Source: Alcanivorax sp. DP30 (lineage in GTDB: Bacteria > Pseudomonadota > Gammaproteobacteria > Pseudomonadales > Alcanivoracaceae). From it: a stretch of DNA of 64,000 nt. The DNA is taken from contig NZ_WTUY01000005.1 in the NCBI RefSeq assembly GCF_009882945.1, positions 475,863 through 539,862 on the forward strand. Direction: 5' to 3'. Shown here piece by piece: positions 31,404 through 36,961 of this stretch; the first letter of the stretch is position 1; each line of letters opens with the position of its first letter. The notes under the pieces were generated by a model. It was given only the letters and a program-made list of their open reading frames with translations, was not told the origin of the DNA and searched no databases. The translations under genes were made by a program, and so were the position numbers.

Positions 31404-31748
31404 ATGCAGGCCTCAGACACGTTGATTATTGATTCGGACATCGTCGCAGAACTGAAGGATGTGATGGGCGATGACTTTTCTGTGCTGGTTGAGTCGTTTA
31501 TTCGCGACGGCGAGCAGCGGCTTCAGGCCCTAAAGCAGGCGCTTGGGGAAGCCAACCGGGAAGCTTTGCGGGCCCAGGCCCATTCATTTAAAGGCAGCAG
31601 TAGCAACCTGGGGGCCGTGCAAGTCTGTGAGCTATGCCTGGCACTGGAAACTCTCGCAGTGGACGGCGAGCTTGGCAGTGCGCCAGACCAGCTGGATTCG
31701 CTGGAAGGCGCATTCCAAAAGGCCTCGCAAGCCCTTCGCGAACTTTGA
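31404..31748 (+). CDS. Hpt phosphotransfer protein
   Basis: 114 residues, one histidine phosphotransfer domain with the phospho-acceptor His60 in AHSFKGSSSNLGA. It has no kinase or receiver domain, so it passes phosphate between a hybrid kinase and a response regulator encoded elsewhere. The size equals that of HptB of Pseudomonas, which feeds into rsmY control; here it lies about 270 bp from a GacA box and 440 bp from an RsmZ-like RNA. The ATG at 31404 follows a GGAAG site. Confidence 0.85.
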   Translation: MQASDTLIIDSDIVAELKDVMGDDFSVLVESFIRDGEQRLQALKQALGEANREALRAQAHSFKGSSSNLGAVQVCELCLALETLAVDGELGSAPDQLDSLEGAFQKASQALREL

Positions 31749-31776: not shown

Positions 31777-31813
31777 AAAAAAAACCCTCTTCCAAAAGTG
31801 GGGTGGAAGAGGG
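31777..31813 (-). terminator. Intrinsic terminator for leftward transcription
   Basis: Perfect 10-bp arms CCCTCTTCCA / TGGAAGAGGG with eight A on the left, giving a T tract only when read on the minus strand. No leftward gene is visible upstream of it within the gap, so its transcript is unexplained. Rightward it has no T tract. Confidence 0.6.
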
Positions 31814-32019
31814 GGGTTGTGAGCGCTATTTCTAGCGCCTTGGGGGGATACTGGCTGAACCTGGGAGTTACCCTAAGCTCATAGAATTAATGCTATCTAT
31901 TCATGGGCGTAGCTGCTGTAAGAACGGGTGAGAAATTGTAAAAACTTACCTGTGTTTTACTGGGCCCGTGTAGCGGCGCCATAAAAAAGGCGTTGCAGAG
32001 GAACCACATCACGCTTCTT

Positions 32020-32037
32020 TGTAAGAGATCTCTTACA
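32020..32037. promoter_or_regulatory. GacA-binding upstream activating sequence
   Basis: TGTAAGAGATCTCTTACA is an exact match to the GacA consensus TGTAAG-N6-CTTACA and part of a perfect 20-bp palindrome (32019-32038). It lies about 165 bp before the predicted RsmZ start, close to the distance known for Pseudomonas rsmZ. Confidence 0.88.
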
Positions 32038-32183
32038 AGGCTGTAGGAAATACACGTCATTTGTCACTGATTTCAAACCATGTCTTCAGCTTAACTCATT
32101 GTAAAGGCTGGACTTTCTGGGTTTGTGCGTTTTTTCGCCATACTTTTAATCTTTTTTTTACCCAAAACCTAAAAACCCGTTGC

Positions 32184-32319
32184 TATAGTGGAATCGTGTT
32201 CAGGGACGAGAGCACAAGGACAAGCAAGGATCGCAAGACACGGAAGTCGTGGTGAGCGCAAAAAAGGGTCAGGATGACTCGACGCAAAAAGGGCGGCAGG
32301 ATGCCGCCCTTTTATTTTG
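32184..32319 (+). ncRNA. rsmZ: RsmZ-like CsrA/RsmA-sequestering small RNA
   Basis: Predicted transcript from about 32195 to 32315. A -10-like TATAGT is at 32184-32189, and the intrinsic terminator follows at 32286-32319. Inside are repeated GGA motifs at 32204, 32218, 32228, 32242, 32272 and 32299, with at least two in hairpin loops (CACG-GAAGT-CGTG, and the terminator loop). CsrA/RsmA proteins bind such GGA loops, so this RNA would titrate them. A perfect GacA box lies upstream and fdxA is convergent on the far side, the same neighbour as rsmZ in Pseudomonas. No protein frame fits. Exact ends are estimates. Confidence 0.85.
32286..32319. terminator. Shared terminator of RsmZ-like RNA and fdxA
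   Basis: Stem GGGCGGCA / TGCCGCCC with loop GGA, A tract on the left and T tract on the right, so it can serve both the rightward small RNA and the leftward fdxA. Confidence 0.85.
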
Positions 32320-32385
32320 TCTGCAGAAAAGTTGCAGAAGTCAGCGCCACACAGGGTTATGGCGCTGCCTGGCAGCAGGAAGGCC

Positions 32386-32721
32386 TTAGCCTTCCCACTC
32401 GCGGACCAGCTTGTCCCGCTTGCCAGCCACACCGTCCCATTCTTCAGCATCGTCCGGTGCGTCTTTCATTTCAGTAATGTTCGGCCACTTCTCAGCCAGC
32501 TCCGCATTGATTTCCAGGAATTCCTGCTCGCCGTCGGGGAGCTCATCCTCAGAGAAAATCGCGTTAACCGGGCACTCCGGCTCACAAAGTGCGCAGTCGA
32601 TACACTCGTCCGGGTGGATAACCAGGAAGTTGGGGCCTTCGTAGAAACAGTCTACCGGGCACACTTCTACACAATCGGTGTGTTTGCAGTTAATGCAGTT
32701 TTCACCTACTACGAATGTCAT
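32386..32721 (-). CDS. fdxA: Ferredoxin FdxA (7Fe type)
   Basis: 111-residue cytoplasmic electron carrier. Cysteines at 9, 12, 17, 21 and 25 and a second set at 40, 43, 46 and 50 ([12 protein letters not shown]) fit one 3Fe-4S and one 4Fe-4S cluster as in Azotobacter ferredoxin I. The ATG at 32721 is chosen over the frame extension to 32760 because it aligns with the conserved MTFVV start and has GAGGA upstream. It lies between the RsmZ-like RNA and mutS, as in Pseudomonas. Confidence 0.95.
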
Positions 32722-33174
32722 AGCCTGTCCTCGCCAGGTGTCTTTATCTTGGTACAGCATCTAGCCGCGGATGATGGCGGCTTGAATACGGTCTCACTTG
32801 GGTGGCGCTAGTCTAGCGGCATGGCCAAAGGCAGGCAAACGAAGACTTGATATAACGATATAGCACGGACAGTCCGAAGAGGACACGGTCGGCGTAATGG
32901 GGCATCTGTAGGAGCACCTCTCGGGGTGCGAACACCGGGTTTTGAAATGTGAGTGTCGAGTTGCGAGAAGCGAGTTTCGGAAACCTGAAGCCATCAGGCC
33001 GAGGCGTCTTTTGCCTTTCGATACTCGCGACTCGTCACTCGCCGCTGTTCCACCGCGATTCGCGAAGCGAAACCGACGCCGGATCGAAAGCTCTCACCGT
33101 GCAACACGCAAGGCCTCCACCGAACAGCCCGGTTTATCTCAGTGACCTCTGTGCGCTCTGTGGTAAAACCGCCT
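32722..33174. other. 453-bp non-coding region between mutS and fdxA
   Basis: Holds the fdxA promoter side and a dispersed repeat at 32957-33042. No open frame that I can support and no RNA gene was seen. Confidence 0.5.
32957..33042. repeat. Dispersed GCGAGT/ACTCGC repeat, copy 3
   Basis: The best-formed copy: left arm 32957-32983 (starts CGAGTTGCGAGAAGCGAGTT) and right arm 33015-33042 (TACTCGCGACTCGTCACTCGC) are inverted relatives around a 31-bp centre. The left arm matches the complement of 22263-22289 at 25 of 27 positions. Confidence 0.65.
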
Positions 33175-35757
33175 TTAAACCAGCCCCTTCAGCTTGTACA
33201 ACGCTTCCAGTGCCTGCTTGGGCGTCAGATCATCAGGGTCAAGCTCAGCCAGGGCCTGCTCCGCGGCGCTGGGTTCGGCAAACAGGCTGGCCTGCGCCGG
33301 CGCCGTTGTCGGGGTGCTGGCGGTGGGGATGACCGTGGGAGGTGCATCGTTCACGGTCAGGCTCTGGCCAGCTTCCAGCTCGCGCAGTTTTTCACCGGCT
33401 TGCTGGATCACCCCGGCTGGCACGCCAGCCAGCTGAGCCACCTGCAGACCGTAACTGCGGCTGGCCGGGCCTTCCTGCACCCGGTGCAGGAAGACAATGC
33501 GGTTGTCGTGCTCGCTGGCGGTGAGGTGGGCGTTGTAGATGCCGGGCAACTGCTCGGGCAATTGGGTCAGCTCGAAATAGTGGGTGGCGAACAGGGTAAA
33601 GGCCTTGAGATTGCGGGCCAGATGTTCCGCCGCTGCCCAGGCCAGGCTCAGGCCATCGAAGGTGCTGGTGCCACGGCCGATCTCGTCCATCAGTACCAGA
33701 CTTTGGGCGGTGGCGTTGTTGAGGATGTTGGCGGTTTCGGACATTTCCACCATGAAAGTGGAGCGGCCACCGGCCAGATCATCGGAGGAACCGATACGGG
33801 TAAAGATCCGGTCCAGATTGCCGATGCGGGCGCTGGCGGCGGGCACACAGCTGCCCAGATGGGCCAGCAGGGCGATCAGCGCGGTCTGGCGCATGTAGGT
33901 GGATTTACCGCCCATGTTCGGGCCGGTGATGATCACCATGCGGCGGGCATCGTCCAGATGCAGGCTGTTGGGCACAAAGGCGTCGTCCAGCACCTGCTCC
34001 ACCACCGGGTGGCGGCCATCGACAATCTCGATGATGGCTTCTTCGTCCACCAGCTGCGGGCGCACCCAGTCCAGCGCTTCGGCACGCTCGGCCAGGGCAG
34101 CCAGCACATCCAGCTCGGCCACGGCAGCGGCACAGCGCTGCAGCGGGTGCAGGTCGGCGGCCACTTTTTCCAGCAGCTCTTCGTAAAGGCGCTTCTCCAG
34201 GGTTAGCGCCTTGCTGGAGGCGGACAGCGCCTTGTCCTCGAACTCTTTCAGTTCGGGGGTGATAAAGCGCTCGGCATTCTTCAGGGTCTGGCGGCGCTGG
34301 TAGTCCACCGGCGCATCGTCCGCTTCCCGGCGTGACAGCTCGATGTAATAGCCGTGGACCTTGTTGTACTTCACCCGCAGGGTGGAAAAGCCGGTGCGCT
34401 CGCGCTCGCGGGTTTCGATATCCACCAGTACCTGGCCGGCGTTCTCGCTGATGGAGCGCAGCTCGTCCAGCTCGGCGCTGTAGCCGGGGGCAATCACGCC
34501 GCCGTCGCGGATCAGCATGGGCGGGTTTTCAATCACTGCGCCGCCGAGCAGATCCACCTGTTCCGGGAACTGGCCGATGCGTTCGATCAGTTCATAGAAA
34601 GCATCGGAAGCGGGCAGGGTGCCGATCAGGGCCGGCAGGGATTTCAGGCTGGCGTGCAGTCGGGTGAGATCCCGCGGACGCGCCGAGCGCAGTGCCACCC
34701 GGCCAAGAATCCGCTCCATGTCGCCAATGTCATCGAGCACATCGCGGGCGGACTCAAAGCACCAGCCCTGGCGCAGGGCCTCGATCTGGTCCTGGCGTTG
34801 ATTCAGGGTGGTGCGATTGCGCATGGGCTGATGCACCCAACGCTTCAGCTGACGGGCACCCATGGCGGTCTTGGTGCTGTCCAGTACCCAGGCGAGGGTG
34901 TGCTGTTCCTGGCCATCCAGGGTTTCGGTCAGTTCCAGATTACGGCGGGTGGCGGCATCCATGGCGACGGTGTCATCAAAGCTTTCCACCACCAGCCCGG
35001 TGACATGGGGCAGCTCGCCGCGCTGGGTTTCCTTGGCATAACCCAGCAGTGCGCCGGCAGCGGCTACGGCCACCGGAGAAGGTTCACCGAAGCCGGCCAG
35101 ATCCTGCACCTGAAACTGCTGGCACAGCTGGCGGCGGGCGGACTCCTCATCAAATTCCCAGTCCGGGCGCTTGCGACTACCGGCATTGTCGCTCCAGCGG
35201 CCCGGCAGGGATTTGTCTTCACTATAGAGCAGTTCGGCGGGAGACCAGCGCTCCAGCAGCGCCTGCAACTGCTCGTTGCCTTCCACCTGGGTCACCACAA
35301 AGCGGCCCGCGGCCACATCCAGGCTGGCGCAGCCATACTGATTCTTTTCTTCGTAGACGGCACACAGCAGGTTGTCGCGACGTTCTTCCAGCAGGGCCTC
35401 ATCGCTCACCGTGCCCGGCGTCACGATACGTACCACCTTGCGCTCAACCGGCCCCTTGGCCAGCGCGGGATCACCAATCTGCTCGGCAATGGCCACGGAT
35501 TCACCCAGCTTCACCAGTCGGGCCAGATAGCCTTCTGCCGCGTGGTAGGGAATCCCCGCCATGGGAATCGGTTTGCCGGCACTCTGACCGCGTTGGGTCA
35601 GAGTAATGTCCAGCAGTCGCGACGCCTTCTGGGCATCACCAAAGAACAACTCGTAGAAATCCCCCATGCGGTAGAACACCAGCTGGTCCGGGTGCTCGGC
35701 CTTGATCGCCAGGTATTGCTGCATCATCGGCGTATGTTGGCTCAGGTCCGCGCTCAC
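33175..35757 (-). CDS. mutS: DNA mismatch repair protein MutS
   Basis: 860 residues. The mismatch-reading Phe-Tyr-Glu is at 34-36 ([10 protein letters not shown]), the Walker A is [13 protein letters not shown], and the following [35 protein letters not shown] is the family signature. The C-terminal tail ([20 protein letters not shown]) is the MutS tetramer/β-clamp region. I choose the GTG at 35757: GGAGG lies 5 bp upstream and the protein then begins [14 protein letters not shown] like other MutS, whereas the ATG at 35841 would lie in a repeat end. Normal length for the family. Confidence 0.96.
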
Positions 35758-35831
35758 GCTTCCTCCGGGGGTATCAGTGACAGGAATCAAAGGGGGGATG
35801 ATATAGGGAACGACACAACTTTTCTTCTCAA

Positions 35832-36961
35832 TCGGGGACACCCATCAATCAGGAGATCTCCTACAGGGATTTTAGTCTTTGTCTGATACAGGGCTGCTCA
35901 TTTGGTCAGTATTGTTGGGTCATGGATAAGCAAGGAGGCTGGCCATGACCCGCGCACGATATACCCAGGTATCTCTGGACTCTACGTCTTACTATCACTG
36001 TATCTGCCGCTGTGTGCGGCGGGCGTTTCTATGTGGCAAAGACCATTATTCAGGTCAGGACTATGAACACCGCCGGCAGTGGGTGGTCGACAGGCTGGCG
36101 GTGCTGGTTGAGGTGTTCGCTATTGACCTTTGTGCCTATGCAGTGATGTCCAATCACTACCACCTTGTGGTTCGGATCAATCAACAGCAGGCGCTTGGCT
36201 GGTCTGACCGTGAGGTGGCGGAGCGTTGGATGCAGCTGTTCAGCGGGCCTTTGATCGTGAAGCGATGGTTGAAAGGCGAGACGAAGGCTGCGGAAGACCT
36301 CAAGGTGCAGGAGATCGTGGATACGTGGCGAGAACGGCTCCATGACTTGGGGTGGTTCATGAAGTGTCTGAACGAACATCTTGCCCGAAAAGCCAACGAA
36401 GAAGATTGCTGCAAAGGCCGCTTCTGGGAGAGCCGTTACAAGTGCCAGGCTTTACTGGATGAAAAAGCGGTGCTGCAATGCATGGCCTATGTGGATCTCA
36501 ATCCGGTTCGGGCCCGTATGGCGGACACACCTGAAAACGCCGATTACACCTCTATGAAGCAGCGATCTGAGAAGATTCAGGGTGGCGAAAGCATGAACGT
36601 GCCCGCTTTGCTCCCTATGGTAGATGCAGAAAACACGGAAACCGCTGATCACGATACTGTGTGCCGTTTCAGGTTGATGGACTATCTGGAATTGGTAGAC
36701 AGCACGGGCCGGGCAGTGCGTGATGACAAGCGAGGCTCGATCTCAGCACATGCTGCGGGCGTGCTGGATCGCCTCGGTATTGATGAGAGAGCCTGGCTTG
36801 CACATATGAAGCCGAGAAAACGTCGTCAGCCGATAGCAATGGGGACTCTGGAAAAGCTGAAGGAATACGCCCAGAACACCGGTCGGAAATGGGTAGCGGG
36901 CCAAAGCTTGGTGGTGTGGTAAGTCATGGCTTTGGTTGATTAAATTTGTGCGTGTCCCCGA
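35832..36961 (+). mobile_element. RAYT element bounded by a 10-bp inverted repeat
   Basis: TCGGGGACAC at 35832-35841 and GTGTCCCCGA at 36952-36961 are perfect inverted copies that bracket the transposase gene at 35945-36922. An imperfect hairpin (CCCCG..TCGC / GCGA.CGGGG) follows the right end at 36956-36996. The element lies downstream of the mutS promoter side. Confidence 0.65.
35945..36922 (+). CDS. REP-associated tyrosine transposase (Y1/HUH family)
   Basis: 325 residues. The HUH metal motif appears as AVMSNHYHLVV (His-Tyr-His), with a second block GRFWESRYKCQALLDEKAVLQCMAYVDLNPVRARMA carrying the conserved Y(V/I)xxNPVRA. These single-copy enzymes nick and move REP-type hairpins rather than whole elements. 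The N-terminus MTRARYTQVSLDSTSYYHCICRCVRRAFLC is typical. The inverted repeat ends at 35832 and 36952 and the hairpin at its right end fit such an element. It appears intact. Confidence 0.87.
   Translation: MTRARYTQVSLDSTSYYHCICRCVRRAFLCGKDHYSGQDYEHRRQWVVDRLAVLVEVFAIDLCAYAVMSNHYHLVVRINQQQALGWSDREVAERWMQLFSGPLIVKRWLKGETKAAEDLKVQEIVDTWRERLHDLGWFMKCLNEHLARKANEEDCCKGRFWESRYKCQALLDEKAVLQCMAYVDLNPVRARMADTPENADYTSMKQRSEKIQGGESMNVPALLPMVDAENTETADHDTVCRFRLMDYLELVDSTGRAVRDDKRGSISAHAAGVLDRLGIDERAWLAHMKPRKRRQPIAMGTLEKLKEYAQNTGRKWVAGQSLVVW

Follow-up and report, generated by a model that had tools for sequence, protein, structure and literature searches.

A conserved GacA box precedes a probable RsmZ-type small RNA beside fdxA in the Alcanivoracaceae

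Introduction

Within the 64,000-nt stretch of Alcanivorax sp. DP30 DNA analysed here (the window), a 637-bp interval that holds no recognised gene separates a gene for an Hpt-domain protein from the ferredoxin gene fdxA. What does this interval encode, and what would control it? The original prediction, made from the sequence alone, placed an RsmZ-like small RNA in it, downstream of a GacA box. An RNA in the corresponding place has since come to our attention in the literature: CsrR2 of A. dieselolei B-5, a small RNA between hpt and a ferredoxin gene, was reported in 2022 from differential RNA-seq (PMC9788540). Its authors describe six unpaired GGA motifs, a promoter of its own and conservation in the Alcanivorax genomes compared there, find a constant level on acetate and hexadecane, and liken CsrR2 to the fdxA-rsmZ arrangement of Pseudomonas (PMC9788540). 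The same report presents CsrA control of alkane genes in Alcanivorax as a prediction, and the term GacA does not occur in its main text (PMC9788540). In our literature search, mostly of papers outside subscription, none of the titles listed concerned a GacA box for Alcanivorax. Judged by gene order alone, the DP30 RNA is the probable orthologue of CsrR2; the two share the order hpt, small RNA, ferredoxin gene, and both have six GGA motifs (PMC9788540).

Results

Gene order around the interval

The Hpt-domain gene (31404-31748, + strand; PF01627, 61.5 bits) lies upstream of the RNA in the same direction, and fdxA (32386-32721, − strand, with an inferred start codon; NF045490, 168.5 bits against a cut-off of 135) is its convergent neighbour, followed by mutS (33175-35841, − strand; TIGR01070). 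Among the 35 homologous loci of the family, the Hpt gene is found upstream in 34, the sole exception being a cut contig; fdxA is the convergent neighbour in all 35, and mutS is present in 34, the remaining locus (L082) being a short contig. A phosphorelay link between the Hpt gene and the RNA beside it is possible.

Three further elements lie nearby. A hairpin behind the Hpt gene (31785-31813) was spotted by eye and was not called by the terminator scan. At 31914-31947, some 75-105 bp upstream of the GacA box, a direct repeat of TGTAAAAAC-like motifs is recognisable in 17 aligned loci of the genus and, from its sequence, is possibly the site of a second regulator. Between fdxA and mutS, TGTAGGAGCACCTCTCGGGGTGC (32907-32930) resembles a REP-type element.

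A GacA box with a third half-site

The GacA box, or upstream activating sequence, TGTAAGAGATCTCTTACA (32020-32037), is a perfect 18-bp match to TGTAAG-N6-CTTACA and is enclosed by a perfect 20-bp palindrome, TTGTAAGAGATCTCTTACAA (32019-32038), just as the original prediction described. The perfect pattern is unique within the window and appears in none of 100 dinucleotide shuffles. Allowing up to two mismatches yields two boxes in the window, an unexceptional number since 22 of 100 shuffles reach it. A third half-site, TGTAGG (TGTAGGAAA; 32042-32047, + strand), follows 4 bp downstream of the box. TGTARG or CGTARG is found 3-5 bp past the box in 33 of the 35 family loci (the exceptions are L030 and L082); the seven loci that score above the cut-off of the Rfam model RF00166 (PrrB_RsmZ) show a TGTARG/CGTARG half-site in three cases, TGTGAG in three and CGTCAG in one.

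A comparable arrangement has been described at csrB of E. coli, where UvrY binds TGTGAGAGATCTCTTACA, centred at −183/−182, and TGTAGGAGA lies 5 bp beyond that site (PMC4682653). The UvrY site described there is one base different from the Alcanivorax box, the box centre is similarly far upstream (about −168/−167 in Alcanivorax), and a TGTAGG half-site closely downstream of the box is common to both (PMC4682653). A consensus scan for IHF sites, allowing up to one mismatch, found none in the spacer between box and promoter.

A predicted GGA-rich RNA with a shared terminator

Downstream of the box, the predicted −10-like element was found as an extended −10, TGCTATAGT (32181-32189, + strand), with no consensus −35; a consensus scan for sigma70-type promoters called none. 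This element would place the RNA start near 32196, at a distance of 158 nt from the box, and the RNA would extend over 122 nt (32196-32317, + strand), both ends being deduced from the sequence. This stretch carries six GGA motifs, four of which are ANGGA; four GGA lie in predicted hairpin loops and two are single-stranded. The expectation of a GGA-rich RNA with several motifs in loops is thus borne out, and its "six or more" narrows to exactly six. Counted on both strands, six GGA are reached by 1.3% of the 122-nt stretches of the window and four ANGGA by 0.11%. Inside the 637-bp intergenic region GGA density is just moderately unusual: its maximum of seven GGA is reached in 25 of 500 shuffles and its maximum of four ANGGA in 10 of 500.

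The RNA folds better than all of 200 shuffles (z −4.5). Predicted hairpins include SL1, GTGTTC(AGGGACGA)GAGCAC (32196-32215), with a loop GGA at 32204; SL3, GAC(ACGGAA)GTC (32237-32248), with a loop GGA at 32242; and SL4, GGGTCA(GGA)TGACTC (32266-32280), with its GGA at 32272, all on the + strand. Not every hairpin appears in each predicted minimum-energy fold. Over 34 aligned family loci, the mean unpaired probability of GGA is 0.85. A further stretch without GGA, TGAGCGC (32253-32259, + strand), is identical in all 34 aligned rows and all 26 named loci and is also readable in L081; its mean unpaired probability in the predictions is 0.51. It is absent from the five loci inspected outside the family, three of which are RF00166 loci above the cut-off.

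The element closing the RNA is a G+C-rich, bidirectional intrinsic terminator (32287-32313) with T runs on both strands and a loop GGA at 32299. It would end the RNA on the + strand and can serve fdxA on the − strand, in keeping with the proposal of a terminator common to both.

Conservation within the family

By DNA similarity, a homologous locus is present in 35 of 57 genomes: DP30 itself, all 16 of the other genomes searched in the genus and 18 of 19 from the rest of the family. The sole family genome without a match is 86% complete, and none of 21 genomes from other families has the locus by this measure. All 35 loci have fdxA, and their GacA boxes deviate from the consensus at no more than one position. 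In each of the 34 loci that were measured, the box lies 157-171 nt before the start (starts deduced from the sequence), an extended −10-like pattern, TGNTANNNT, stands at the corresponding place, and the RNA carries six or seven GGA. The spacer between box and promoter has mostly diverged, except for the third half-site and, within the genus, a T-rich block before the promoter. The comparison across Alcanivorax genomes that had been proposed as a check thus shows box, RNA and fdxA recurring in 35 of 36 family genomes, and this conservation is the strongest argument against chance.

Starting from seven aligned Hpt proteins, we also scanned titled records and retained 80 of 90 loci, of which 48 went into an RNA search with our covariance model R2 and all 80 into a search for fdxA. 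fdxA was found in 26 of the 80; these are the same 26 in which R2 detects the RNA, and every one of them has the box. The scan is only partly independent, because many of these genomes were already in the similarity search or had fed model R2. The carriers are mostly Alcanivorax and Alloalcanivorax, including A. nanhaiticus, A. jadensis, A. hongdengensis, A. profundi, Alloalcanivorax marinus, Alloalcanivorax venustensis and Alloalcanivorax xenomutans. In a survey of 55 fdxA neighbourhoods, eight have a box (R/Y allowed, up to one mismatch) no further than 750 bp away, three of them from this family, so box and fdxA do not always occur together in the order.

Covariation in the predicted helices

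Covariation was scored on the named structure, and misaligned rows were retained and counted as breaks. Alignment A1 comprises 34 rows, 31 of them distinct, and omits one of the 35 family loci, L081, which has a different terminator loop. Alignment A2, without the terminator, keeps 24 of these rows after removal of near-duplicate or misaligned ones (L011, L013, L014, L020, L021, L022, L026, L029, L079 and L082).

Partners in the named helices pair in 87.6% of cells in A1, compared to 41-47% with slid partners, and in 90.9% in A2, compared to 27-45%. Cells changed on both sides number 26 in A1 against 11.4 in shuffles, which ignore the relatedness of rows, and 13 in A2 against 4.9; none of 500 shuffles reaches either count. 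The number of pairs in which both partners have changed is a weaker signal: eight in A1 against 5.4 (reached by 19 of 500 shuffles) and four in A2 against 2.9 (127 of 500). Further pair types are not above the shuffles in A1 (301 of 500 reach the observed value) and are reached by 92 of 500 in A2. In SL1 two of six pairs have changed on both sides, and two pairs of the terminator show compensatory changes. RNAalifold recovers just 15 pairs on A1, which we attribute to several rows being misaligned at the 5′ end.

These patterns bear on two other accounts of the interval. A small protein-coding gene in 32181-32330 could use one of the open frames present there, all of them short and the longest of 34 codons, but one- and two-base insertions between species and compensatory changes suit RNA helices rather than codons, and we find such a gene scarcely credible. 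Alternatively, the RNA might act mainly as an antisense RNA to fdxA, with CsrA binding secondary. The convergent genes with one common bidirectional terminator would favour such a role, and CsrR2 was called antisense to fdx by its authors (PMC9788540). However, some 70 nt would separate the end of the RNA from the fdxA stop codon, limiting the overlap to the terminator and the 3′ UTR, and the GGA loops and covarying helices are conserved. In the DP30 RNA, the antisense overlap described for CsrR2 (PMC9788540) would thus be limited to the 3′ end, and an antisense function as the main one appears very improbable.

Relation to RsmZ of Pseudomonas

As described for Pseudomonas, rsmZ is surrounded by fdxA, mutS and rpoS (PMC4353343) and is placed at rpoS/fdxA (PMC3349714). 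The fdxA-mutS neighbourhood and the convergent orientation are alike in the Alcanivorax locus (PMC4353343), whereas the upstream gene differs, being hpt in Alcanivorax and rpoS at the Pseudomonas rsmZ locus (PMC3349714). Both RNAs are about 120 nt long with GGA hairpin loops. The CsrB RNA of E. coli has roughly three times this length and around 18 GGA motifs, and is located elsewhere.

The RF00166 model matches 32195-32316 over its entire length (model positions 1-133 of 133) with 18.4 bits and an E value of 0.058. The Rfam scan suggested along with the original prediction therefore gave an end-to-end match to the RsmZ model, but one that falls short of the gathering score of 44; at gathering scores the sole Rfam match in the window is a tRNA. 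Rfam annotation consequently overlooks the Alcanivorax RNA, which is an RsmZ orthologue by locus, structure and box and not a formal Rfam member. A whole-genome RF00166 search of 194 genomes of the order gave matches in 23, seven of them above the cut-off, and DP30 is not among the genomes with a listed match.

Among 20 RF00166 loci retrieved from other families, fdxA lies no more than 1.5 kb away in 12 (five of seven above and seven of 13 below the cut-off), and none has a hit to the Hpt gene nearby. All seven loci above the cut-off come from one family, presumed to be the Pseudomonadaceae; fdxA and mutS both adjoin in five of them, and each carries a box that departs from the consensus by one base at most. 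By our arithmetic this box precedes the match by 160-172 nt, compared to the 157-171 nt of the Alcanivoracaceae. Of the 13 loci below the cut-off, two contain such a box anywhere in the locus. The Alcanivorax RNA differs from RsmZ in having diverged in sequence below the Rfam cut-off, in bearing a GGA in its terminator loop and in its TGAGCGC stretch, absent from the RF00166 loci inspected. The resemblance to Pseudomonas rsmZ in box distance, GGA content and fdxA neighbour, as originally noticed, holds on all three counts and is conserved across the family.

Two loci from other families are of separate note. L127 (1150-1347) has two tandem RsmZ-like units beside fdxA with the box TGTGAGATATCTCTTACA, the second unit being weak (E 0.014), and L157 (446-873) has, next to fdxA, an extended GGA-rich region in which AAGGAAGCTAGAGC is repeated in tandem, in a CsrB-like style.

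We also searched with covariance models of our own. R1, which includes the terminator, matched in 92 of the 194 genomes; outside the family, scores were mostly in the range of 20-30 bits and some of the matches covered nothing but the terminator, so these matches were discarded. R2 was accordingly built without the terminator. In a small search it recovered four of the seven RF00166 loci above the cut-off, and in a genome search it found the correct RsmZ place in two of six genomes, G095 (E 0.0085) and G220 (E 0.14 and 0.27), and missed it in G055, G127, G154 and G178; in G127 it matched eight places, none of them the RsmZ locus. The case for common descent with RsmZ is thus made mainly by gene order, box and architecture, and the model scores lend it weak support.

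In DP30, R2 finds one place at E ≤ 1. The RsmY model RF00195 gives 17 weak matches in this genome, none above the cut-off (best E 0.012), and also matches in 10 of 14 control genomes. DP30 apparently has one sponge RNA of the RsmZ type; it could have a further Rsm RNA of another design.

Look-alike boxes in dispersed repeats

Does the box at this locus belong to GacA? The DP30 genome holds 21 box sites at up to one mismatch, compared to two for the reversed pattern, and 14 sites of the form TGTARGN6CYTACA, compared to none for the reversed control. The latter form occurs at 10-15 sites per genome in all four genomes of the genus searched, at 1-5 sites in four genomes from three other genera of the family, at 1-3 sites in three presumed Pseudomonadaceae genomes, and at 0, 0 and 2 sites in three genomes of other families; the reversed pattern is absent from the eight family genomes and occurs zero times or once in the other six.

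Nine of the 14 DP30 sites sit in two dispersed repeat families, A (L067, L069, L071, L073 and L075) and B (L063, L064, L066 and L072), each of which carries a GacA-like box such as TGTAGGATATGGCTTACA; the common stretches run from about 50 to over 400 bp. The repeats mostly adjoin open reading frames without a Pfam match, and L067 adjoins a gene for Shedu SduA. Two more look-alike boxes were noted, one upstream of a HigB-like gene (L078), which has partial similarity to repeat A, and one near an integrase (L077). One query of a plasmid collection with repeat A returned no match. The 21 sites resembled a regulon and were considered as further small RNAs, a reading that we set aside; nine of them belong to the two repeats.

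Because dispersed repeats bear such look-alikes, a match to the GacA box by itself carries less weight in this genome than the original prediction assumed. The repeats could be mobile elements with a recombination site similar to the box, or their boxes could be real GacA sites. This abundance of near-identical boxes lends some weight to the reading that the RNA is an RsmZ-homologous CsrA sponge and its palindrome serves another regulator. However, the rsmZ box lies outside both repeat families and its flanks are unlike theirs. In G025, the single TGTARGN6CYTACA site is the rsmZ box, showing that the box persists where look-alikes are missing. Its position and spacing also fit the RF00166 loci above the cut-off and the csrB site described for E. 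coli (PMC4682653). We therefore regard another regulator at this palindrome as quite unlikely, and favour GacA.

The Gac/Rsm cascade in the genome

The control implied by the original prediction has its components encoded in the genome. GacA is recognised with 304 bits against a curated equivalog cut-off of 280, and its gene adjoins uvrC. A GacS-type kinase of 898 amino acids has the order HAMP, kinase, receiver, Hpt; its best match is BarA, with 759 bits, below the cut-off of 890. Further kinases include a RetS-like one with two receivers and several of LadS-like type, both named from their domain architecture. No sCache_4 domain was found in the DP30 genome. One CsrA match, above the curated cut-off, is present and differs at 3 of 56 positions from the CsrA of the solved structure 1y00. 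In Alcanivorax, LadS and RetS have been described as accompanying GacS and GacA (PMC7366521).

Discussion

Sequence elements, conservation, covariation, an rsmZ-like gene neighbourhood and the genes of the cascade are all observed at this locus or in this genome. From them we infer transcription of the RNA in DP30, its dependence on GacA, its binding of CsrA and the existence of target genes. Taken together, these results indicate that the DP30 RNA is very probably the Alcanivoracaceae orthologue of RsmZ, activated by phosphorylated GacA (GacA~P) and sequestering CsrA.

In the mechanism that we propose, GacS, modulated by the RetS- and LadS-type kinases, would phosphorylate GacA. GacA~P would bind the 18-bp box together with the third half-site, some 167 bp upstream of the start, and would activate the extended −10 promoter without a −35 element, presumably via DNA bending. 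The resulting 122-nt RNA would display GGA motifs in hairpin loops and linkers and bind several CsrA dimers, and this titration of CsrA would free CsrA-repressed mRNAs. The original prediction proposed lipid storage or attachment as possible outputs.

The RNA is of an ordinary kind and has already been reported in Alcanivorax as CsrR2. What is added here is modest: the conserved GacA box, the third half-site next to it and a cascade assembled from genes of the genome. The combination of gene order and box identifies an RNA that the Rfam RsmZ model leaves unannotated, and could be used to extend that model.

It is conceivable, if unlikely, that box-bearing, mobile-like elements have carried GacA control to accessory genes within Alcanivorax sensu stricto. 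If this were true, GacA~P would directly switch the accessory genes behind the repeat boxes, some of which have a third half-site, in addition to rsmZ.

For the biology of the organism, the orthology with RsmZ would place a GacS/GacA-RsmZ-CsrA cascade in a major marine oil-degrading genus and would provide a signal input for the predicted CsrA control of alkane genes in Alcanivorax, to which we found no earlier tie in the literature searched. Pseudomonas has two to three such small RNAs, and a system with one would be genetically simpler to dissect (PMC2375449).
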